Of a stretch of 64,000 nt of DNA, positions 48,770-60,842 are shown one piece after another. Source of the DNA: Rhodoglobus sp. (GTDB taxonomy: Bacteria; Actinomycetota; Actinomycetes; Actinomycetales; Microbacteriaceae); contig JAODLY010000032.1 in NCBI GenBank assembly GCA_025464445.1, positions 1 to 64,000 of the forward strand, in the 5' to 3' direction. The notes under the pieces are model-generated. The model did no database searches. It worked only from the letters and a program-made list of their open reading frames with translations, and was not told where the DNA came from. The number at the start of each line of letters is the position of its first letter. Within the stretch, counting starts at the first letter, position 1. The translations under genes and the position numbers were made by a program.

Positions 48770-50278
48770 ATGACTGAATCCCACCAGGTCGCAGACGACA
48801 CGGCCGTCGAGCGGGTGCTCGCAAGCGCCGAGAAACAATCCGCCGGATACACGCTGTTCGGCTCCGGCAGCGCCCAGGCACTGCAGGGCGACAACCACTA
48901 CGAAGGCGATCGCGACGGCGACCAGTTCGACCGCGAAGACCGGCAGGCGCTCCGTCGCGTCGCCGGCCTCTCGACCGAGCTCGAGGATGTCACCGAGGTC
49001 GAGTACCGGCAGTTGCGTATCGAGAACGTCGTGCTCATCGGCGTCTACAGCCAGGGCACTGTCACAGACGCGGAGAACTCGATCCGCGAGCTGGCGGCGC
49101 TTGCCGAGACTGCCGGCGCCGTCGTGCTCGACGGACTGTTGCAGCGGCGGCCGCATCCCGATCCGAGCACGTACTTCGGCAAAGGCAAGGCGCAGGAACT
49201 CGCGGATGTCGTGGCTGCCACCGGGGCCGACACGGTTATCGCAGACACCGAGCTGGCCCCCAGCCAGCGGCGTGCCCTCGAGGATGTCGTGAAGGTCAAA
49301 GTCATCGACCGCACCGCGGTGATCCTCGATATCTTCAGCCAGCACGCCACAAGCCGCGAAGGCCGGGCCCAGGTGGAGCTCGCGCAACTCGAGTACCTGC
49401 TGCCGCGACTGCGCGGTTGGGGTGAATCGATGTCGCGCCAGGCCGGTGGCCAGGTGGGTGGCGCCGGCAGCGGAATGGGAAGCCGCGGACCCGGTGAGAC
49501 GAAGATCGAACTCGACCGCCGCCGCATCCACACCCGCATGTCGAAGCTGCGCAAGCAGATCAAGGGGTTCGCGCCCGCGCGGGAGGCGAAGCGGGCGAAC
49601 CGCAATCGCTTCGAAGTGCCGTCGGTGGCGATCGCCGGCTACACGAACGCGGGAAAGTCGAGCCTGCTCAACCGCATCACGCGGGCGGGCGTGCTCGTCG
49701 AGAACTCCCTGTTCGCGACGCTGGATGCCACAGTGCGGCGCTCGTCGACACCGGATGGCAGGCTGTTCACGCTGAGCGACACCGTGGGATTCGTGCGCAA
49801 CCTGCCGCACCAGCTCGTAGAGGCGTTCCGCTCGACGCTCGAGGAGGTCGGCCAGTCCGACGTCATCGTGCATGTCGTCGACGCCTCGCACCCCGATCCC
49901 GGGGCACAGCTGGCCACGGTGCGCGATGTCATCGGGGAGCTCGGGGCACGCGACATCCCGGAGATCGTCGTTTTCAACAAGAGCGACCTCGCGGATGACG
50001 ACCAGCGACTGCTCATCCGCGGGCTCGAACCGACGGGGATCTTCGTGTCCGCCCGCACCGGTGAGGGCATCGACGAGCTCATGGCGCGCATCGCCGAGCT
50101 GCTCCCCGCCCCCGAGGTGGAGCTCGCACTGCTCGTACCGTACGACAGGGGTGAGGTCATCTCGCGACTGCACGTGCAGGGCAGGGTGCTCTCGACCGAC
50201 TACCGGGAGGACGGCACACTCGTGACGGCGCTCGTGCATCCCGCGCGGGTGGCCGATTTGCAGGAGTTCATCGCGTAA
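48770..50278 (+). CDS. hflX: GTPase HflX
   Basis: 502 residues. HflX N-terminal domain (GLLQRRPHPDPSTYFGKGKAQEL, about 125-150), glycine-rich linker AGGQVGGAGSGMGSRGPGE, then G domain: G1 GYTNAGKSSLLN, G3 DTVGFV, G4 NKSD. Ribosome-splitting GTPase. -10 TAGGGT (48757-48762) is seven bases before ATG and no Shine-Dalgarno is visible, so leaderless. Confidence 0.95.
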   Translation: MTESHQVADDTAVERVLASAEKQSAGYTLFGSGSAQALQGDNHYEGDRDGDQFDREDRQALRRVAGLSTELEDVTEVEYRQLRIENVVLIGVYSQGTVTDAENSIRELAALAETAGAVVLDGLLQRRPHPDPSTYFGKGKAQELADVVAATGADTVIADTELAPSQRRALEDVVKVKVIDRTAVILDIFSQHATSREGRAQVELAQLEYLLPRLRGWGESMSRQAGGQVGGAGSGMGSRGPGETKIELDRRRIHTRMSKLRKQIKGFAPAREAKRANRNRFEVPSVAIAGYTNAGKSSLLNRITRAGVLVENSLFATLDATVRRSSTPDGRLFTLSDTVGFVRNLPHQLVEAFRSTLEEVGQSDVIVHVVDASHPDPGAQLATVRDVIGELGARDIPEIVVFNKSDLADDDQRLLIRGLEPTGIFVSARTGEGIDELMARIAELLPAPEVELALLVPYDRGEVISRLHVQGRVLSTDYREDGTLVTALVHPARVADLQEFIA

Positions 50279-50304
50279 CGGAGAATTCTGCGGGTCGACG
50301 TGCT

Positions 50305-50412
50305 TAGACTTATCCAGTCGGGCACGTCGCCCGACAGGAGCGACAGCCGAGCCCGGCACCCGCCCAATCGGGACAGCATCCATCGGATGTGTCGTCAACG
50401 AAGGGGCTTGTG
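50305..50412 (+). promoter_or_regulatory. metF leader with metE-like conserved block
   Basis: A -10 TAGACT at 50305-50310 is followed by a stem (GTCGGGC/GCCCGAC around 50317-50335). Block 50339-50366 is 25/28 identical to metE leader 58391-58418; its core is AGCCGAGCCCGGCACCCG. CCGA at the core start can pair with TCGG downstream, holding GCCCGGCACCCG in the loop. An 8-codon ORF (50387-50413) ends on the metF ATG. Possible cis-regulatory RNA; ligand unknown. Confidence 0.6.
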
Positions 50413-51357
50413 ATGACCGGAGAACGCGTCTTTCCGACGTTCTCCTTCGAGTTGTACCCACCGCGATCGCCTGCGGCGGAGGTCAGCCTCTTCGAGTCCA
50501 TCGATCGGTTGTCCGCCGCGAATCCAGAATTCATCTCGGTGACGTACCGCCCGACCAGCCCCGACCGTGCCGCATCCCTCTCGGTGTTGGGCAAGCTCAT
50601 CCGCGAGCACCGGGTGCACGCGATGGCACACCTCACGTGCGTCGGCTCCTCGTATGCCGAGGCCAGCCAGGTCATTCGGGAGTTCCTGGACGAGGGTGTC
50701 ACGAGCTTCCTGGCGCTGCGTGGGGACCCGCCGGACGGCCAATCCGAGGGCGACGACTTTCTCGGCGACCTGGCGAGCGCCGCGGAGTTGGTGCAGCTCA
50801 TCCACCGGGTACAGGCAGAGCGCAGCCAGTTCACCTTCGAGGAAGTGCCTGGCTTCCCCGCTGCGAAGCGGTTGCGCAGTGGTGAGAAGGTCACGATCGC
50901 GGTCGCTGCGTTTCCCAACGGGCATCCGCGCTCCAGGTCTCGCGCCCAGGACATCGACACGCTGCTGGCAAAACAGGCCGCGGGTGCGAACCTCGCGATC
51001 ACGCAGCTCTTCTTCGAGGCGGATGAGTACCTCACCTTCGTGAATGAGGCCCGCTCCGCGGGCGTCACCATGCGAATCCTGCCGGGCATCATGCCCGTGA
51101 TGAGCCTCGCGAGGCTGCGCCGCACCCTCGAGCTTTCGGGTGAGTCCATGCCCCGGAAGCTGCTGGCAGCACTCGAGGCGGCTCCGGACAGCGAGACCGC
51201 GGCGCAGGTCGGTATCGATGCGTGCACCGGGCTGGCGAAGGATCTTCTCGCCGGGGGTGCCGATGGCATCCACCTCTACACGTTCAACCGTTCGGACGCC
51301 CCACTCGCCGTGCTCAGGGGTGCCGGCTTGCTCGGAATGTCGAGCCAACCGGCTTGA
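50413..51357 (+). CDS. metF: Methylenetetrahydrofolate reductase
   Basis: 314 residues. TIM barrel with FAD: FSFELYPPRSP (catalytic Glu), FISVTYRPTS, AHLTCVGSS, FLALRGDPP and ITQLFFEADEY. It reduces methylene-THF to methyl-THF, the methyl donor for MetH and MetE encoded downstream. ATG at 50413 has AAGGGG about seven bases upstream. Followed after 38 bp by transporter genes, probably one operon. Confidence 0.95.
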   Translation: MTGERVFPTFSFELYPPRSPAAEVSLFESIDRLSAANPEFISVTYRPTSPDRAASLSVLGKLIREHRVHAMAHLTCVGSSYAEASQVIREFLDEGVTSFLALRGDPPDGQSEGDDFLGDLASAAELVQLIHRVQAERSQFTFEEVPGFPAAKRLRSGEKVTIAVAAFPNGHPRSRSRAQDIDTLLAKQAAGANLAITQLFFEADEYLTFVNEARSAGVTMRILPGIMPVMSLARLRRTLELSGESMPRKLLAALEAAPDSETAAQVGIDACTGLAKDLLAGGADGIHLYTFNRSDAPLAVLRGAGLLGMSSQPA

Positions 51358-51395
51358 CCACCTCGATCTGTCAGACAACAACTCGTAAGGATGCC

Positions 51396-51905
51396 ATGAC
51401 CCGCTTCACCCGAACCACCGCGCCTGTCCTCATCGCCCTGGCGGGCCTCGCTCTCGCCGGATGCACTGTTGCCGGCCCGACGTCCACGCCGACGGCGGCA
51501 CCCACCTCGGCTGGTCCGTGCGAAACCGTGACGATCGTCGTGGACTTCGGCGTGCTCGACCACCCATCGGTGAAGGCATGCACGGATGCGGGAGTTGCTG
51601 CGGGCGCATTGAAGGCTGCAGGCATTACCACCGAGGGCACAGTCGACTACGGGGACCAGGTCATCTGCCGGGTGAACGGCGAGCCCGCAGCGGATGAGAC
51701 CGTCACGATCGAGGGCCAGGCGCCTTTCACCGAATCGTGCCAGACCCTCAACGCGGCCGCGTACTGGGCGTTGTGGGTGAAGACCTCGGCTGACTCGGCA
51801 TGGGAGTACGCCCAGGAGGGCGCGGCCACCCTGAAGCTGACCGACGGGCAGTCAGTGGGCCTGGTGTACACCGCCGGCACCGACTCCACCCCGCCCAAGG
51901 ACTGA
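51396..51905 (+). CDS. DUF4430-like lipoprotein, possible cobalamin-capture protein
   Basis: 169 residues. Lipobox LAGC (cysteine about residue 23), a threonine/proline/alanine linker, then a domain whose order (AGALKAAGI, VDYGDQVICRVNGEP, YWALWV..SAWEYAQEGA, DGQSVGLVY) fits DUF4430, related to the beta domain of transcobalamin. That relation, plus adjacent ECF and metH genes, suggests it hands cobalamin or a similar ligand to the transporter. Three cysteines remain in the mature domain. AAGGA precedes ATG; the stop shares one base with the next ATG. Confidence 0.72.
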   Translation: MTRFTRTTAPVLIALAGLALAGCTVAGPTSTPTAAPTSAGPCETVTIVVDFGVLDHPSVKACTDAGVAAGALKAAGITTEGTVDYGDQVICRVNGEPAADETVTIEGQAPFTESCQTLNAAAYWALWVKTSADSAWEYAQEGAATLKLTDGQSVGLVYTAGTDSTPPKD

Positions 51906-53842
51906 TGCGCATCACCCGCCTCGCCGGCCTCCGCAGCGCAGTCCTGCTGGCGGCCGGCTTCGTGGGTCTGCGGGTGCTGTACCGGGTGCTCTTCGGGGGC
52001 ACGGGCGGCGGCGGACTGTTGCTGCTCGATCTTCCGCGCATCCGGCTGGCAGGACCGTTCGCGCACATCACGCTGTTCGGTCCGGTGACCACCTGGGGAG
52101 TCGGGAACGCGGCGCTCAGCGCTTTGCCGTTCGCGGCGCTCGTGCTCGCGCTCGGCCTGCTCGGCCCGATCGTGGACATCCGGGCGCTCCTGACGCGCGG
52201 GGCCGTCCGCGGCCCGGTCCGGACGGTTTCGCGCGCCCTCGTGATCGCCTGGGCCACCTTTCCCGCCCTGCTCGACTCGGTGCGCCGGGTTCGCGTGGCG
52301 CGCGAGTTGCGCGGCACGCGCGGGCCGGCATCGCTCATCGTCCCCGTGCTGGAGCAGACCGTCGAACGGGCGATAGCGCTCGGTGCCTCGATGGAGGTGC
52401 GCGGGTTCGCGGCGACGCGTGTCGCTGAGCCCGCCTGCGAACGTCCGGCGACGCTGGAGGACGTGTCCCTCGGCTACGAGGACCGGTGGAGTCTCGAGCA
52501 CGTGAACCTCGTTTTCGAGCCGGGCACGCTCACCCTCGTGACGGGGGCTACCGGGTCCGGTAAGTCGACGCTCCTGCACGCGATGAGCGGGTTGTTCCAG
52601 CACGTCGCAGACGGCGTCCAGCGTGGCGGGATCGAGGTGGCCGGCGTGGACAGGATCTCGGTCCCTCCCCGCGAGACCGCCGGCTTCGTGGGGGTCGTCT
52701 CGCAATCGGTGCGGCTGTCGTTCGTTGCAGCGACCGTCGCCGAAGAACTGGGTTTTGCGCTGGCGATACGCGGCGTCGCCCCCGTGATCGTGCGGACCAG
52801 GGTCGCCGAGCTCGCCGAGCGCCTCGGGATCGCTCACCTGCTCGACCGCGAGATCGGGGCGCTCTCGGCGGGAGAGGCTTGCCTGGTCGCCATAGGCGCG
52901 GCGCTGGTCGAGCGCCCGGTGCTGCTCATCGTGGATGAGCCCCTGGCCGACCTCGACGAGGCGGCCAGGATCCGGGTGATCGACGTGCTCGAGCGGCTCG
53001 CGCACGACGCCGGAGTCTGCGTCGTCATCGCCGAGCACGCAATTCGCGACTGGGGTGCGCTACCCGACAGGCGACTGGACATCCGCGACGGCACCGTGCA
53101 CATCGTCGGTCCCGGATCGGAGGACCGCGGCCTCGGGGACGAGGACGCTCCGCGCCCCACGGAATTGCGCGTTGGCCCCACGTCGGCCGAGATTCACGGC
53201 CTCTCCGTGTCACACGGTGCCCGTGTAGCGGTGGATGACGCGAGCCTGTCGCTCGCCGCAGGGGAGATCGTCGCCCTGCGCGGGCCGAACGGCGCGGGTA
53301 AGAGCAGCCTGCTGCACGCCATCGCCCGTCCGGTGCGGCGGGACACGGTTCTCATCGGTGGGCTGGACGTGCACGGTTCGGCTCGTCGGAGCCGCCGCCA
53401 CGCTGTCGCGCTCGTGCCTGAGGCGTTCGACGACCTGCTGTTCGCCACGACCGTCGGGGAGGAGTGCCACCGCGCCGACCGGGATGCCGGGCTGTCCGGC
53501 ACCGCGGACCTCTTCGCCCGCCTGCTCGGCGTCCACTCGGCAGCGGGAGCCACGGCCCTCATGCACCGGCACCCCCGGGACCTGTCGGCGGGGGAGCGGC
53601 TGTGCCTCGTCCTCGCGATCCAGCTCTCGGCGCGGCCGCGGGTGCTGCTCGTCGACGAGCCAAGCCGCGGATTGGATGCCGCTGCCCGCCGACTCGTCGG
53701 TGCGGTGCTGCGCGAGGCTGCCGCGTCCGGTGCCGCCGTCGTCATCGCCACGCACGACCAGGACTTCGCGGCGCAGTACGCGACGCGCACGATCGCCATG
53801 GCTGCGGGACGACTGGATGCGCCGGTCGGAGCGTCGTCGTGA
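51905..53842 (+). CDS. ECF transporter fusion: EcfT plus two ATPase domains
   Basis: 645 residues. Residues 1-175 form a membrane EcfT domain with paired ARG-type motifs (VARELRGTRG, ASMEVRGFA). Two ABC domains follow: Walker [12 protein letters not shown] (about 214-224) with Walker B VLLIVDEPLADLD, and Walker A GPNGAGKSSLL (about 460) with Walker B VLLVDEPSRGLD. Both signature motifs are variant, LSAGE. It energises uptake with the S component encoded next. TGATG couples it to the lipoprotein gene upstream. Confidence 0.88.
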   Translation: MRITRLAGLRSAVLLAAGFVGLRVLYRVLFGGTGGGGLLLLDLPRIRLAGPFAHITLFGPVTTWGVGNAALSALPFAALVLALGLLGPIVDIRALLTRGAVRGPVRTVSRALVIAWATFPALLDSVRRVRVARELRGTRGPASLIVPVLEQTVERAIALGASMEVRGFAATRVAEPACERPATLEDVSLGYEDRWSLEHVNLVFEPGTLTLVTGATGSGKSTLLHAMSGLFQHVADGVQRGGIEVAGVDRISVPPRETAGFVGVVSQSVRLSFVAATVAEELGFALAIRGVAPVIVRTRVAELAERLGIAHLLDREIGALSAGEACLVAIGAALVERPVLLIVDEPLADLDEAARIRVIDVLERLAHDAGVCVVIAEHAIRDWGALPDRRLDIRDGTVHIVGPGSEDRGLGDEDAPRPTELRVGPTSAEIHGLSVSHGARVAVDDASLSLAAGEIVALRGPNGAGKSSLLHAIARPVRRDTVLIGGLDVHGSARRSRRHAVALVPEAFDDLLFATTVGEECHRADRDAGLSGTADLFARLLGVHSAAGATALMHRHPRDLSAGERLCLVLAIQLSARPRVLLVDEPSRGLDAAARRLVGAVLREAAASGAAVVIATHDQDFAAQYATRTIAMAAGRLDAPVGASS

Positions 53843-54771
53843 CCGGGGTGCTCGATGGCCTGCGCGTTCGCCCCTCTGGTGGTGACCACCGCTGGTCGCG
53901 CTGGTCGTTGGTGATCGCCAGTATCCTCGCGATCGCGGGATTCGCGTGGCCGCTCGTCGCCGCAGCTGTGCCGAAGGATGCCCAGGCGGCCGTGCCGGTG
54001 GTCGCGCTCGCGCTCGTGCCCGCGATCGCCATCGCCGTCGCGTTTGGCCTGGATCGCCAAATGCATACCGCAACGACGGTTGCGCTGCTTGGTGTGCTCG
54101 CGGCGGTCGGTGCCGCGGTTCGGATCGCGGGCACTGGCGTCGGCGGGGTTGAGGCCGTCTTCATCGTGCTGATCCTCGCCGGGCGAGCGTACGGCGCCCG
54201 CTTCGGTTTTCTGCTCGGCATGCTCACCATCGCGCTCTCGTCGGTGCTCTGGGGCGGCATCGGCCCGTGGACCCCCTTCCAGGTCTTCGCCTGCGGCTGG
54301 GTGGCCGCGGGTGCCGGGCTGCTCCCGCGCATCAGGGCGGCCTCGCCCCGCGCCGCCCGGCGCTGGGAATTGCTCATGCTCGTCGCGTACGGAATCATCG
54401 CGTCCTACGCGTTCGGCCTCGTCATGAACTTCTGGTTCTGGCCATTCGCCGTCGGTACGGGCACCGGCATCTCCTATGCGGCAGGAGCGCCGCTCGGCCA
54501 GAACCTCGCATCCTTCGGCCTCTATTCGCTCGTGACCTCGACGCTGACCTGGGACACCGTGCGCGCGATCACGACGACCATCGGCATCCTGCTCGTCGGA
54601 CCCGCAGCACTAGCCGCGCTGCGCCGTGCGAAGGTCGGCAGGTCGCGCGCCGCCGCTCTCAGACCGAGAAGTAGCGAGCCGCGGGGTGGTGGAACACGAA
54701 CGCGTCGGTCGACTGCTCGGGATGCAGCTGAAGTTCCTCCGACAGCTCCACCCCCATCCGCTCCGGCTTGA
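53839..54771 (+). CDS. ECF transporter S component (putative cobalamin)
   Basis: 310 residues from GTG, overlapping the previous stop by four bases. About seven membrane helices; WPFAVGTGTGISYAAGAPL and the surrounding segments resemble CbrT-type S components. Cobalamin specificity is inferred from the DUF4430 neighbour and adjacent metH. The last 37 residues (from 54659) are polar, low-complexity and overlap the 3' end of metH by 113 bp; the protein likely once ended near residue 270. Confidence 0.8.
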   Translation: MTGVLDGLRVRPSGGDHRWSRWSLVIASILAIAGFAWPLVAAAVPKDAQAAVPVVALALVPAIAIAVAFGLDRQMHTATTVALLGVLAAVGAAVRIAGTGVGGVEAVFIVLILAGRAYGARFGFLLGMLTIALSSVLWGGIGPWTPFQVFACGWVAAGAGLLPRIRAASPRAARRWELLMLVAYGIIASYAFGLVMNFWFWPFAVGTGTGISYAAGAPLGQNLASFGLYSLVTSTLTWDTVRAITTTIGILLVGPAALAALRRAKVGRSRAAALRPRSSEPRGGGTRTRRSTARDAAEVPPTAPPPSAPA

Positions 54772-57700
54772 GCAGTTCGACGACCTTGCGCCGATCCTCC
54801 ATGTTGGGGCATGCGGGGTAGCCGAGGGAGAACCGCGCGCCGCGGTAGCGCAGTTTGAACATGCCTTCGATATCGTCGGGGTCTTCGGCCGCGAAGCCCA
54901 GTTCGGCCCGGATGCGCGAGTGCCAGTATTCGGCGAGCGATTCGGTCAGCTGCATGGTCAGGCCGTTCAGCTCGAGGTAGTCGCGGTACTTGTTCTCGGC
55001 GAACATCTTCGCGGTGAACGCATCGACGGCGGAGCCGGCCGTCACCAGCTGGATGGGTACGACGTCGATCTGGCCAGACTCCTTGGAGCGCACATAGTCG
55101 GCGAGGCAGAGGTGACCGTCGCGGCGCTGCCGCGGGAACGTGAGGCGAAGGCGCTCCCGGCCGATCTGGCCACCGGACCCACCGTCGGGGGCGAGCAGCC
55201 CCGGGGTGCCGAGGATGCCCGTCGGGTCGTCGCCGTGGTGCAGGATCACCAGGTCGTTGCCCTCGGAGTAGGCGGGGAAGTACCCGTAGGCCACAGAGGC
55301 GTCGAGCATGCCCTCGGAGAGGATGCGGTCGAGCCAGTAGCGCAGCCGGGGGCGGCCCTCGGTCGCGACCAGCTCTTCGTAGCTCGCGCCGTCCTCGGCG
55401 CGGCTGGGCTTCAGCCCCCACTGCCCCATGAATGTGGCGCGCTCATCGAGGAACGCGGCGTAGTCGGCGAGGGCGATGCCCTTCACGATGCGGGTCCCCC
55501 AGAACGGCGGGCTCGGCACCGGATTGTCGGTGGCGACATCCGACCGGGCGGGCATGTCCTCGGGCTCGGTGATGTCGATGGTGGCCCTCGCGTGGATCCG
55601 CTTCTTCAGGGGCGGCAGCCCGACGCTCGAGACCTCGGCACCACGGGAGATCGCGACCAACGGTTCCATGAGGGCGAGCCCTTCGAACGCGTCGCGCGCG
55701 TAGCGCACCTCGCCATCGAATATCGAGGCGAGGTCGTCTTCGACATAGGCGCGGGTGAGGGCAGCTCCGCCGAGCAGGATCGGCCACCTTTTGCCGAGGC
55801 CGCGCGCATTGAGCTCGAGCAGGTTCTCCTTCATGACCACCGTCGACTTCACGAGCAGTCCACTCATCCCGATGACATCGGCATTGTGCTCCTCCGCCGC
55901 ACGGATGAACTCGCTGATCGGCTGCTTGATGCCGATGTTGATGACGTCATAGCCGTTGTTGGTGAGGATGATGTCGACGAGGTTCTTGCCGATGTCGTGC
56001 ACGTCCCCCCGCACGGTGCCGATCACCATGGTGCCCTTTCCCGCCGCATCGGACTTTTCCATGTGCGGTTCGAGGAGCGCCACTGCCGTCTTCATGACCT
56101 CGGCCGACTGGAGCACGAAGGGGAGTTGCATCTCGCCGCTGCCGAACCGGGCACCCACCACCTGCATGCCGGCGAGGAGATGGTCGTTGACGATGCCGAG
56201 CGCGGTCATCCCTCCCGCGCGAGCGAGATCGAGGTCGGCTTCGAGCCCCTTCGCCTCACCGTCGATGATGCGGCGTTCGAGGCGCTCGCCCACCGGCAGT
56301 GCAGCCAACTCGGCCGCGCGCTCATCCTTGAGGGCTGCGGAGTCGACGCCGGCGAAAAGGTCGAGCAGCGCCGACAGCGGGTCATAGGTGAGGTTGCCGT
56401 CGGCGTCGTACTCGCGCTTGTCCCAGACCAGGTCGAGGGCCACCTTGCGACGGTCGTCGGGCACGGAGGCCAGCGGCACGATCTTCGCCGCGTTGACGAT
56501 CGCCGAGTCGAGACCGGCCTGCACGGCTTCGTGAAGGAACACCGAGTTGAGCACGGAGCGCGCCGCCGGGTTCAGCCCGAACGAGACGTTCGAGACGCCG
56601 AGCGTCGTGTGGATGCCGGGATACTTCGCCGTGATCTGGCGGATCGCGTCGATGGTCTCGATCGCGTCGCGCCTTGTCTCCTCCTGGCCGGTCGCGATCG
56701 GGAAGGTCAGGGCATCGACGATGATGTCCTCGACACGCATGCCCCATTCACCGACCAGGCTGTCGACGAGGCGCGAGGCGATGCGCACCTTGTTCTCCGC
56801 CGTCCTGGCCTGGCCCTCCTCGTCGATGGTGAGGGCGATCACGGCGGCGCCGTGCTCCTTCACGAGCGGCATGATCCGGCCGAACCGCGACTCAGGCCCT
56901 TCGCCGTCCTCGAAGTTCACCGAGTTGACCACCGGGCGACCGCCGATGAGCTCCATTCCGGCCTGCAGCACTGCGGGCTCGGTGGAGTCGACGACGAGCG
57001 GGAGCGTCGACGCGCTCGCCAGTCGGGAGATCACGTTGCGGATGTCGGCGACGCCATCACGCCCGACGTAGTCGATGCAGACGTCGAGCAGGTGGGCGCC
57101 CTCGCGGATCTGGTTGCGGGCGATGTCCACGCAGTCATCCCAGCGCTCCTCGAGCATCGCCTCACGGAACGCGAGCGAGCCGTTGGCGTTGGTGCGCTCG
57201 CCGATCGCGAGGTAGGAGGCATCCTGGTTGAAAGGGACGTGCTGGTACAGGCTCGCGACACCGGGGTCTTCCTCGATGACACGCACCCCAGCCCGCGCGC
57301 CACCGATGCGGTCGACGACCGCCTTGAGGTGCGCCGGGGTGGTGCCACAGCATCCGCCGACCAGGCCGAGGCCGAACTCCTTCACGAACTGCTCGTGCGC
57401 CGTCGCCAGCTCATCGGGCGTCAGCGGGTAGCTCGCACCGTTGGCGCCGAGCACGGGCAGTCCGGCGTTGGGCATGCACATCACGGGGATATGCGCGAAC
57501 TTGGAGAGGTGGCGCAGGTGCTCGCTCATCTCGGCTGGGCCGGTCGCGCAGTTCAGGCCGATCATGTCGATCCCGAGCGGCTCGAGGGTCGTGAGGGCTG
57601 CGGCGATCTCGCTGCCCATCAGCATCGTGCCGGTGGTCTCCACTGTGACCTCGACGAAGATGGGCACGCGGATGCCGGTCTCCACTATCGCCTGCTTGCA

Positions 57701-58279
57701 GCCGTTGACCGCGGACTTGGCCTGCAGCAGGTCCTGCGAGGTCTCGATCAGCAGGGCATCCACGCCGCCGAGGATGAGGCCGCGCGCCTGCTCGGCGAAT
57801 GTCGCCTTGAGATTCGCGTATGTGGTGTGGCCCAGGCTCGGCAGTTTCGTGCCGGGACCCATCGAACCGAGCACCCACCGCACACGGCCGTCGCGCTCCT
57901 CCATCGTCTCCGCGGCCCGCCTGCCGATCTCGGCGCCCGCCCTGGCGAGCTCCTCGATGCGATCCTCGATTCCGTAGTCGGAGAGGTTCGACCAGTTCGC
58001 GCCGAAGGTGTTCGTCTCGATGGCGTCGATGCCCGTCTCGAGGTAGGCGATATGGATGGCTTCGACGATGTCGGGGCGCGAGACGTTGAGGATCTCGTTG
58101 CAGCCCTCGTGCTGCTGGAAGTCCTCCATCGTGGGGCCGGCGTCCTGGAGCATCGTGCCCATCGCACCGTCGGCGATCACGACCCGTTCGGTCAGGGCCT
58201 TGAGCAGCGCCTCCGATCGGGAGGGGCGTGGGATGTCGGAGAGGTCGACGAGCGACGGGGAGTTCACGGTCGAGGGCAC
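54659..58279 (-). CDS. metH: Cobalamin-dependent methionine synthase
   Basis: 1206 residues from GTG. Four modules in order: homocysteine domain (ADGAMGTMLQ; zinc cysteines in GLNCATGP and GGCCGTTP), pterin domain, cobalamin domain with ligand GDVHDIGKN, and the SAM reactivation domain. Methylates homocysteine with methyl-THF. TAGGCT (complement of 58286-58291) is six bases before GTG, so the mRNA appears leaderless, unlike metE and metF. The 3' end overlaps the S-component gene by 113 bp. Confidence 0.97.
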   Translation of the reverse strand: MPSTVNSPSLVDLSDIPRPSRSEALLKALTERVVIADGAMGTMLQDAGPTMEDFQQHEGCNEILNVSRPDIVEAIHIAYLETGIDAIETNTFGANWSNLSDYGIEDRIEELARAGAEIGRRAAETMEERDGRVRWVLGSMGPGTKLPSLGHTTYANLKATFAEQARGLILGGVDALLIETSQDLLQAKSAVNGCKQAIVETGIRVPIFVEVTVETTGTMLMGSEIAAALTTLEPLGIDMIGLNCATGPAEMSEHLRHLSKFAHIPVMCMPNAGLPVLGANGASYPLTPDELATAHEQFVKEFGLGLVGGCCGTTPAHLKAVVDRIGGARAGVRVIEEDPGVASLYQHVPFNQDASYLAIGERTNANGSLAFREAMLEERWDDCVDIARNQIREGAHLLDVCIDYVGRDGVADIRNVISRLASASTLPLVVDSTEPAVLQAGMELIGGRPVVNSVNFEDGEGPESRFGRIMPLVKEHGAAVIALTIDEEGQARTAENKVRIASRLVDSLVGEWGMRVEDIIVDALTFPIATGQEETRRDAIETIDAIRQITAKYPGIHTTLGVSNVSFGLNPAARSVLNSVFLHEAVQAGLDSAIVNAAKIVPLASVPDDRRKVALDLVWDKREYDADGNLTYDPLSALLDLFAGVDSAALKDERAAELAALPVGERLERRIIDGEAKGLEADLDLARAGGMTALGIVNDHLLAGMQVVGARFGSGEMQLPFVLQSAEVMKTAVALLEPHMEKSDAAGKGTMVIGTVRGDVHDIGKNLVDIILTNNGYDVINIGIKQPISEFIRAAEEHNADVIGMSGLLVKSTVVMKENLLELNARGLGKRWPILLGGAALTRAYVEDDLASIFDGEVRYARDAFEGLALMEPLVAISRGAEVSSVGLPPLKKRIHARATIDITEPEDMPARSDVATDNPVPSPPFWGTRIVKGIALADYAAFLDERATFMGQWGLKPSRAEDGASYEELVATEGRPRLRYWLDRILSEGMLDASVAYGYFPAYSEGNDLVILHHGDDPTGILGTPGLLAPDGGSGGQIGRERLRLTFPRQRRDGHLCLADYVRSKESGQIDVVPIQLVTAGSAVDAFTAKMFAENKYRDYLELNGLTMQLTESLAEYWHSRIRAELGFAAEDPDDIEGMFKLRYRGARFSLGYPACPNMEDRRKVVELLKPERMGVELSEELQLHPEQSTDAFVFHHPAARYFSV

Positions 58280-58378
58280 CGGATCAGCCTAATCCGCCTG
58301 CCGGCCGCATCCGCCCTGACCTGTCGACTGCCGAGCGCCCGCCGGCGTAACAAAGGCGACCCCGGCATCCTCGATCCT

Positions 58379-58523
58379 TAGACTGGTTGCAGCGAAAGCC
58401 GAGCCCGGCACCCGTCTAGATCGACTCGGCACTTGCCGCAGATCGAAGGACTCCGGTGGACCAGGGCATTCAGCGCCCGCGGCGTCGATCTCCTTCGAGT
58501 GGCACACGAATGGAGAACCACCC
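58379..58523 (+). promoter_or_regulatory. metE leader with metF-like conserved block
   Basis: -10 TAGACT at 58379-58384 is seven bases before block 58391-58418, so the block begins at the predicted 5' end of the RNA. It is 25/28 identical to the metF block. GCCGAG (58398-58403) can pair with CTCGGC (58424-58429), presenting CCCGGCACCCG in the loop. GGAG serves the ATG. No cobalamin-riboswitch sequence elements were recognised. Confidence 0.6.
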
Positions 58524-60842
58524 ATGCCTGCACCCTTCCCCACCGGCACGATCCTCGGTTACCCGCGCATCGGCCGCCGCCGCGAACTCAAGAAGACCGT
58601 CGAGGCGTTCTGGGCCGGAAAGATCACCGTCGACGAGCTCGAGGCGACAGCCACTTCACTGCGGGCGGCCACCCGTGAGCGGCTCGCATCCCTCGGGCTC
58701 GGCCGCACCGACTCGTCGATCCCTTCAGGCTTCTCCTACTACGACCACGTTCTGGATGCCGCGGTCACGGTGGGTGCCGTGCCGACGAGGTTCCAGCGGC
58801 TCGTGAAGGCCGACGGCACGATCGACCTTGCCGGGTACTTCACCATCGCGCGCGGCGAGGGAGCCGACACTCCGGCCGAGATGACCAAATGGTTCGACTC
58901 GAACTACCACTACCTCGTGCCGGAGATCGGGCCGGAGACGAACTTCCACCTGGCGTCTGACCGTCTCGTGCGCGAGGTCGCCGAGGCGACCACGAGCGGA
59001 TTCCGCACCCGTCCGGTGATCGTCGGCCCGATTACGTTCCTGCTGCTGAGCAAGCCCTCCGAGGGCGCCCCCGATGGCTACCAGCCGCTCGACAGCCTCG
59101 ACGACCTGCTGCCGGTCTACGCGGAACTGCTCGCGGCCCTTACAGCCGTCGGCGCTGAGTGGGTCCAGTTCGACGAGCCCGCGTTGGTCTCCGAGAGCAT
59201 CGAAGTGCCCCGGGATGTCGTGCTCGCCGCCACGAAGAAGGCCTACGACCTGCTCAGCGCGGTTCCGGTCCGCCCGCAGATCTTCGTGGCCGCGCCCTAC
59301 GGTCCGCTCGACGATGCCCTCCCGGTGCTCGTCGGCACCCCCATCGAGGCCATCGGCGTCGACCTCGTCAAGGGCGACCTGCCCAGTGGCATCTCCACCG
59401 ACAAGACGCTTGTCGGCGGTGTGATCGACGGCCACAACGTCTGGCGCGGCGACCTCGAGGCGGCCTTCGCGTCGCTCGAGTCGCTGCGCGGGCTGTCGCC
59501 GAATGTGGCGGTGTCGAGCTCTACTTCGCTCTTCCACGTGCCGCACGATGTCGACGACGAGCCCCTGCTAGCCGACCAGTTGAAGAGCTGGCTGGCCTTC
59601 GCCGACCAGAAGGTCGGCCAGGTCGCCACCCTCGCTGTCGGTCTCTCGCTTGGACGGGCGGCGATCCGTGACGAGCTGGATGCCGCATCCGCGGCCCTCG
59701 AAGACCGCCACCACGCCGCGGGAGTGCGGGACGGTGCCGTGCGCGCCCGCGCCGCCGCGCTCACCGATGCCGACTTCTCGCGAGGGGACTACGCCACGCG
59801 ACTTCAGGCACAGGATGACGCGCTGCACCTCCCTTTCCTGCCCACCACGACCATCGGCTCGTTCCCGCAGACCGGCGACATCCGCAAGGAGCGCGCGGCT
59901 CTCGTATCCGGCGCTATCAGCACCGAGCAGTACAAGCAGGCGATGCGCGACGAGATCAAGCGCGTCGTCGACCTGCAGGAAGAGATCGGCCTCGACGTGC
60001 TCGTGCACGGCGAACCGGAACGCAACGACATGGTGCAGTACTTCGCGGAGAACCTCGACGGATTCGCCGTGACGCAGAACGGCTGGGTGCAGTCCTACGG
60101 CTCCCGCTGTACGCGCCCGTCGATCCTCTGGGGCGATGTCTCGCGGCCGAAGCCGATCACCGTCGAGTGGTCGACATACACGCAGTCGCTCACCGCGAAG
60201 CCCGTGAAGGGCATGCTCACCGGTCCCGTGACGATCCTCGCCTGGTCGTTCGTGCGCGACGACCAGCAGCTGCGCGATACGGCGAACCAGGTCGCCCTCG
60301 CCCTGCGCGATGAGATCGAGGATCTCGAGGCCGCCGGCATCGGAATCATCCAGGTCGACGAGCCGGCGCTACGCGAGTTGCTGCCGCTTAAGAAGAAGAA
60401 CCAGCCCGACTACCTCGACTGGTCTGTCGGCTCGTTCCGGCTCGCGACCGCCGGTGTGAAGGACAGAACGCAGATCCACACCCATCTCTGCTACTCCGAG
60501 TTCGGTGTCGTCATCGACGCGATCAATCGACTGGATGCCGACGTCACGTCGATCGAAGCGGCCCGCTCGAAAATGGAGGTCGTGCCCGACATCAAGTCGA
60601 GCGGGTTCGCCAGGGGAATCGGGCCGGGCGTGTACGACATCCACTCACCGCGGGTGCCTTCGGTCGAGGAGGTCAGCGACCTCATCGACATCGCCCTCGG
60701 CTCGATCCCAGAGCGCCAGGTCTGGGTCAACCCGGACTGCGGCCTGAAGACCCGCGGATACGACGAGACAGTCGAGTCGCTCACGAACATCCTGGCCGCA
60801 ACTCGTGCGGCCCGGGCTGCCCGCGTGGGGGCTGGCGTCTAG
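58524..60842 (+). CDS. metE: Cobalamin-independent methionine synthase
   Basis: 772 residues. Two barrel domains; zinc ligands in THLCYSEFG and VNPDCGLKTRG near the C terminus, and the linker LPTTTIGSFPQT at about 445. Uses methyl-tetrahydropteroyl-triglutamate without cobalamin, so it backs up MetH when B12 is scarce. GGAG lies eight bases before ATG. Divergent from metH with a 244-bp spacer. Confidence 0.97.
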   Translation: MPAPFPTGTILGYPRIGRRRELKKTVEAFWAGKITVDELEATATSLRAATRERLASLGLGRTDSSIPSGFSYYDHVLDAAVTVGAVPTRFQRLVKADGTIDLAGYFTIARGEGADTPAEMTKWFDSNYHYLVPEIGPETNFHLASDRLVREVAEATTSGFRTRPVIVGPITFLLLSKPSEGAPDGYQPLDSLDDLLPVYAELLAALTAVGAEWVQFDEPALVSESIEVPRDVVLAATKKAYDLLSAVPVRPQIFVAAPYGPLDDALPVLVGTPIEAIGVDLVKGDLPSGISTDKTLVGGVIDGHNVWRGDLEAAFASLESLRGLSPNVAVSSSTSLFHVPHDVDDEPLLADQLKSWLAFADQKVGQVATLAVGLSLGRAAIRDELDAASAALEDRHHAAGVRDGAVRARAAALTDADFSRGDYATRLQAQDDALHLPFLPTTTIGSFPQTGDIRKERAALVSGAISTEQYKQAMRDEIKRVVDLQEEIGLDVLVHGEPERNDMVQYFAENLDGFAVTQNGWVQSYGSRCTRPSILWGDVSRPKPITVEWSTYTQSLTAKPVKGMLTGPVTILAWSFVRDDQQLRDTANQVALALRDEIEDLEAAGIGIIQVDEPALRELLPLKKKNQPDYLDWSVGSFRLATAGVKDRTQIHTHLCYSEFGVVIDAINRLDADVTSIEAARSKMEVVPDIKSSGFARGIGPGVYDIHSPRVPSVEEVSDLIDIALGSIPERQVWVNPDCGLKTRGYDETVESLTNILAATRAARAARVGAGV

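Follow-up and report, generated by a model that had tools for sequence, protein, structure and literature searches.

The cobalamin riboswitch (RF00174) is a regulator of metE in other bacteria, and SAM-IV (RF00634) along with the other S-adenosylmethionine (SAM) and S-adenosylhomocysteine (SAH) classes control methionine-cycle genes in actinobacteria and elsewhere. The THF-II riboswitch (folE motif), as described in the part of its report that was available, is small, has two stems around an internal bulge, is confined to one order of Proteobacteria and has been proposed to control translation (PMC6800512). In Streptomyces coelicolor the small RNA (sRNA) scr5239 targets metE post-transcriptionally (PMC4365011, available in part). 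In a 64,000-nt stretch of DNA from Rhodoglobus sp. (contig JAODLY010000032.1, positions 1 to 64,000; the window), the leaders of metF and metE carry a conserved element that, judging from comparative analysis, is most likely a lineage-restricted, riboswitch-like cis-regulatory RNA.

The element resembles each of these systems in part. Like the cobalamin riboswitch it precedes metE; however, RF00174 has no match in this genome, in a search whose control was positive in 8 of 14 named genomes. SAM-IV and the other SAM and SAH classes also act on methionine-cycle genes, yet RF00634 is without a match in the genome (its control was positive in Corynebacterium glutamicum), and the leaders, run against all 4227 Rfam models at E≤10, gave chance-level matches only, with no SAM or SAH family. 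The same run returned no match to THF-II, whose model was not singled out. At the gathering cut-off no Rfam 15 family was found in the window and in loci from 20 relatives. An earlier reading of the window from its letters (the sequence-only reading) had suspected as much for the leaders; the link to B12 that it also raised finds no backing in the cobalamin search or in the strand facing metH, on which the element is absent. By simplicity and narrow spread, not by sequence, THF-II appears to be the nearest analogue, as both RNAs are small, with two stems and an internal loop, a narrow spread and genes of a one-carbon pathway, although the available part of its report places THF-II in a Proteobacteria order and before folE rather than in Microbacteriaceae and before metF and metE (PMC6800512). 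With scr5239 the element would share post-transcriptional control of metE, exerted there by an sRNA on the mRNA and here by a structured leader (PMC4365011, from the part available). A search of the open literature, which covered few subscription papers and had bioRxiv preprints outside its scope, found no description of the element, and the available parts of two large intergenic-RNA discovery papers (PMC11109978, PMC8632094), their supplements being outside the scope, hold no mention of Microbacter-, Clavibacter or Leifsonia.

In the window the two leader blocks, at 50339-50366 (AGCGACAGCCGAGCCCGGCACCCGCCCA) and 58391-58418 (AGCGAAAGCCGAGCCCGGCACCCGTCTA), agree at 25 of 28 bases, and direct comparison confirms the earlier count. 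Two exact copies of the string AGCCGAGCCCGGCACCCG occur in the window. Allowing up to three mismatches gives three matches, whereas 100 shuffles averaged 0.44 and never reached three. Across the 2.84-Mb assembly the 17-nt core occurs exactly at just two places, the metF and metE leader blocks, while two mismatches admit 16 further places on either strand versus 8 for the reversed control pattern. Pfam and NCBIfam checks bear out the identity of the downstream genes as metF (methylenetetrahydrofolate reductase) and metE (cobalamin-independent methionine synthase), and the gene divergent from metE is metH. The TAGACT noted before each block can be read in the sequence and likely represents the -10 of both genes (Table 1).

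The element is not a two-copy curiosity; it recurs across Microbacteriaceae. A covariance model search found the block upstream in relatives, and compensatory changes exist among them. The conserved RNA begins with a P1 hairpin of variable sequence; after it comes P2/P3, a stem-loop that hardly varies, whose 3x3 internal loop is usually ACA opposite ACC or AUC and whose apical loop is AGCC. In the core, columns 1-6 pair with 25-29 (P2) and columns 10-13 with 18-21 (P3). Across 34 distinct cores standard pairs fill 93.5% of the P2/P3 cells, and both sides change in 9 cells in 5 pairs; none of 500 shuffles reached 9 cells and one reached 5 pairs, although sequences that are related may outscore shuffles of this kind even where no structure exists. 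Every pairing measure falls when the partner strand is slid. The inner P2 pair goes from G-C to A-U in four rows, while in P3 one row turns a C-G into A-U and another turns a G-C into A-U and also shows a G-U form. The two outer P2 pairs, which are unpaired in 11 and 6 of the 34 rows, account for three of the nine both-side cells. The AGCC loop is constant in 101 of 101 non-redundant sites, which were themselves found by similarity to the core.

P1 shows little sequence conservation, and its evidence is of a different kind. An unbroken stem ending 0-2 nt before the core has at least 7 bp in 34 of the 101 sites, at least 6 bp in 46 and at least 5 bp in 51. At the 7-bp threshold, 100 shuffled sets gave a mean of 3.1 sites (maximum 8), swaps of the 5' arm between species gave 4.4 (maximum 10), and moving the test window 10-50 nt upstream gave 0 to 5. 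In a cruder energy test on 110 sites, z averaged -1.06 and 34% of the sites had p≤0.05. The 50-nt metF element of the window is predicted to fold as P1 plus P2/P3 in 86% of the ensemble (z -3.5), and the metE core alone has a z of -1.1. Covariation in these alignments supports the proposed P1, P2 and P3. The helices suggested by the sequence-only reading, GCCGAG with CTCGGC in metE and CCGA with TCGG in metF, can be drawn in single sequences, but relatives instead conserve GCG/CGC and GCCG/CGGC inside the block, and the segment GCCCGGCACCCG, which it took to be mostly loop, is largely paired in the conserved fold. Its candidate regulatory RNA therefore stands as a conserved RNA outside Rfam and falls in the pairings proposed. 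With conserved secondary structure maintained by compensatory changes, and a location on the sense strand in the 5' untranslated region of related genes (the promoter being placed from sequence), the element appears to be a new candidate class among the cis-regulatory leader RNAs, with no named family.

The genes behind the element belong to one pathway. A methionine gene lies downstream in 77 of 80 loci among the GTDB matches listed, the other three being cut short. In the fetched loci, 125 stretches agree with the consensus at 21 or more of 29 positions; the 110 of these with at least 24 were retained by score alone, and all 110 precede metF, metE, a MetE-like gene or remnants. Conserved N-terminal motifs identify the first gene as metF for 105 sites, as metE for two and as MetE-like for two; at the remaining site (G016) nothing was recognised except metE, roughly 1 kb further on. 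A metE search had supplied some of these loci, while the covariance model search itself is blind to genes. Most fetched loci have one element followed by metF and metE in succession; the window and G130 differ in that metF and metE are separated and each is preceded by an element of its own.

Several loci depart from this layout. In G019 and G003 (L102:260-1423 and L143), the first gene behind the element encodes a MetE-like protein of about 388 aa, which in G019 matches PF01717 at E 1.1e-7 and in G003 is followed by metF and metE. G007 and G496 (L178, L192) retain the element with single changes before an apparently decayed metF. In G116 (L205) a P1-like hairpin stays before metF and the core is missing, as if deleted.

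Microbacteriaceae are soil- and plant-associated actinobacteria. With up to one mismatch on both strands, the core pattern was found in 73 of 199 of their genomes, versus 11 of 199 for the reversed control. A covariance model of 29 positions, built from 32 sites, matches 120 of 398 Microbacteriaceae genomes at E≤0.1, with 108 sites at E≤1e-3 in 106 genomes. An order-wide draw gave matches at E≤0.01 in 17 of 297 genomes (15 Microbacteriaceae and two weak ones elsewhere, E about 0.009) and a phylum-wide draw in 4 of 296, all Microbacteriaceae; both used stricter filters, which may miss weak relatives. Neither weak match was counted, since one (G481) sits among several similar GAGCCC stretches and the other (G436) has no strong site in the stretch examined. 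A pattern scan of GTDB contigs matched at least 120 stretches, and 80 loci among the matches listed were analysed. Most of their titles name Microbacterium, Agromyces, Cryobacterium, Leifsonia, Rathayibacter, Herbiconiux, Salinibacterium and similar genera, which belong to Microbacteriaceae by taxonomy. The exceptions are a Microthrixaceae metagenome-assembled genome (MAG), a 'Planococcus' record and MAGs labelled only Actinomycetota or Micrococcales, all with metF- or metE-like sequence downstream. Outside Microbacteriaceae there are thus only weak or doubtful matches among the order and phylum draws and the listed GTDB loci. The Microthrixaceae locus (L244), an 8-kb contig with the element followed by metF and metE, may be a misbinned contig or a case of horizontal transfer.

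The element also has a consistent place in the transcript. Of the 101 sites, 98 have a TANNNT hexamer 20-80 nt upstream, mostly at 30-50 nt (shuffles: mean 24.5, maximum 33). P1 starts 10-22 nt after the first base of this hexamer in all 46 sites with a stem of at least 6 bp, which would put P1 close to where transcription is expected to begin. Core and start codon are 22-138 nt apart, with a median of 69, in the 89 of 101 sites with an assignable start.

Given the above, we favour, at a probability of about one half, an RNA of about 50 nt near the 5' ends of metF, metE and MetE-like mRNAs in Microbacteriaceae that would bind a metabolite and control translation in cis. Such an RNA is probably a small switch sensing methionine or folate metabolism. 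A compound of the methionine/methyl-folate cycle, be it SAM, SAH, homocysteine or a folate, would be bound by its internal and apical loops, and formation of P2/P3 would set how efficiently the downstream gene is translated, whether up or down, because the C-rich 3' strand of the core can also pair downstream. Homocysteine and (methyl-)folate are substrates and products of MetE and MetF. The more specific proposal of a new and exceptionally small riboswitch class that senses one of these two and switches metF and metE translation is, on present grounds, rather unlikely.

Translation is pointed to by the lack of any terminator-like site in the window's metF and metE leaders. When the 5' part is folded by itself, the core is predicted in 61 of 89 leaders; once the leader is added up to the start codon, the core survives in 4 of the 38 short (≤60 nt) and 17 of the 51 long leaders, the median cost of keeping it being 2.4 and 0.9 kcal/mol, respectively. 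Two competing folds are therefore plausible, at least in the short leaders, most of which fold otherwise at full length. In the window's metF leader the coreless fold is favoured (-49.3 versus -45.0 kcal/mol). In 26 of the 38 short leaders, the 18 nt that immediately precede the start codon are paired with the core's 3' half in the best fold. Complementarity of the core 3' strand to short leaders exceeds that in partner swaps (-11.04 versus -10.07, standard deviation 0.28). In a k-mer scan against the downstream leader, core bases 28-32 find complements in 28 of 89 leaders (shuffles 13.8, maximum 21), with small excesses for bases 6-11 (6 of 89 versus 2.1) and, in short leaders, bases 21-25 (8 of 38 versus 4.0); the AGCC loop shows no excess complementarity there.

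Several observations weigh against a metabolite-binding, translation-controlling RNA. A shuffled core pairs equally with the ribosome-site region (a mean of 25.5 of 38, versus 26 of 38), without specificity; as shuffling the leader instead lowers this to 11.2 of 38, such pairing appears to follow from C-rich versus G-rich composition, and switching between the folds can only be suggested from the models. In long leaders the core pairs with the last 18 nt in just 5 of 51, and the complementarity excess is small (-13.39 versus -12.96, lowest swap -13.42). Covariation in the core is thin: changes on both sides are seen in only 4 distinct rows for the inner P2 pairs and in 2 for the P3 pairs. A 29-nt core is small for a riboswitch, and the window's metE element is without P1. 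Furthermore, the metE search gave 59 genomes whose metE match is strong, with E below 1e-150 (a contig end truncates one of them). The element is present at E≤0.01 in 41 of these genomes and lacking in 18, so that it is common, not universal, in Microbacteriaceae. Seventeen of these 18 were inspected: 10 have metF beside metE with no full element, G029 carries a diverged version, and in G020 and G100 the leaders look short, their start codons being unsettled. In the other 91 genomes of that search, matches at E≤0.01 were seen in G007, G066 and G099; the metE and covariance model searches drew overlapping genome sets, and the overlap was not matched one by one.

The main rival is that the stem-loop is a site for an RNA-binding regulatory protein, or for one of the enzymes, that blocks or helps translation or protects the mRNA, a real if tentative possibility. 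Protein sites typically look like this, a simple hairpin whose apical and internal loops are constant and in which few bases change, and restriction to one family suits a lineage-specific protein. However, the near-perfect tie to one pathway is equally expected of a metabolite sensor, and no candidate protein was found, none having been sought. Unlikely, by comparison, is a target of a trans-acting sRNA, or a 5'-terminal mRNA stability element with no sensor role. P1 does lie near the expected 5' end and the C-rich conserved core could pair with another RNA; yet P2/P3 is kept by compensatory changes that a linear target does not need, and a stability role alone explains neither why the AGCC loop is invariant nor why the element is tied to a single gene context; no search for such an sRNA was made.

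A DNA operator downstream of the promoter, an option already raised by the sequence-only reading as a repressor site, is highly improbable. GCCG-n4-CGGC is a dyad, symmetric changes such as GCAG/CTGC would preserve it in DNA too, and these promoters also bear a likely upstream protein box. Against this, P1 covaries without sequence conservation, G-U pairs occur in P2/P3, the AGCC centre is asymmetric and other promoters of this genome have no copies. A conserved leader peptide acting by attenuation is scarcely credible and was rejected, for although an ATG or GTG stands just ahead of the core in some leaders, no conserved open frame with a start crosses the block (from an upstream ATG, GTG or TTG the frame is open through the core in at most 59 of 101 sites, 28 with ATG) and the variable positions have no codon phase.

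The element is small and its limits are known to the base; many cultured strains carry it, and it serves a single pathway, so that its ligand or protein partner can be searched for directly. If it proves to be a true riboswitch, it would in our judgement rank with the simplest, and it may sense a ligand for which no natural RNA sensor is known so far.

Table 1. Features of the metF and metE loci in the window
Feature	Position	Strand	Basis
GTAACG before metF, one half of a putative activator box	50275..50280	+	analogy with boxes of relatives; weak
Overlap of this GTAACG with the stop codon of the upstream open reading frame (ORF)	50275..50280	+	ORF end
TAGACT, presumed -10 of metF	50305..50310	+	sequence; TANNNT trend in relatives
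P1 hairpin of metF element, GTCGGGC-ACGTC-GCCCGAC	50317..50335	+	comparative stem test, fold
P2/P3 core of metF element; AGCC loop 50350-50353	50337..50365	+	covariance model, fold
AAGGGG, presumed metF ribosome-binding site	50401..50406	+	sequence; inference
metF (PF02219), ATG start assumed	50413..51357	+	ORF, Pfam/NCBIfam
metH (TIGR02082), divergent from metE, element absent on its strand	54659..58279	-	ORF, Pfam/NCBIfam
GTAACA before metE, one half of a putative activator box	58347..58352	+	analogy; weak
TAGACT, presumed -10 of metE	58379..58384	+	sequence
P2/P3 core of metE element, no P1; AGCC loop 58402-58405	58389..58417	+	covariance model, fold
metE core: outer P2 pairs not formed	58389..58417	+	fold
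metE (PF08267, PF01717)	58524..60842	+	ORF, Pfam/NCBIfam

The promoters upstream of the element have a feature of their own. In the genome to which the window belongs, the full repeat GTMAC-n5-GTMACA has no exact copy; there are half sites only, and one of these overlaps a stop codon (Table 1). In some relatives GTMACA forms a 10-bp direct repeat in the metF/metE promoters, and across 96 sites it occurs 46 times at 31-34 nt and 20 times at 42-44 nt upstream of the presumed -10. These boxes resemble the Streptomyces MtrA site, given as GtnAcC-n5-GTnAcn in the available part of its report (PMC13189361).

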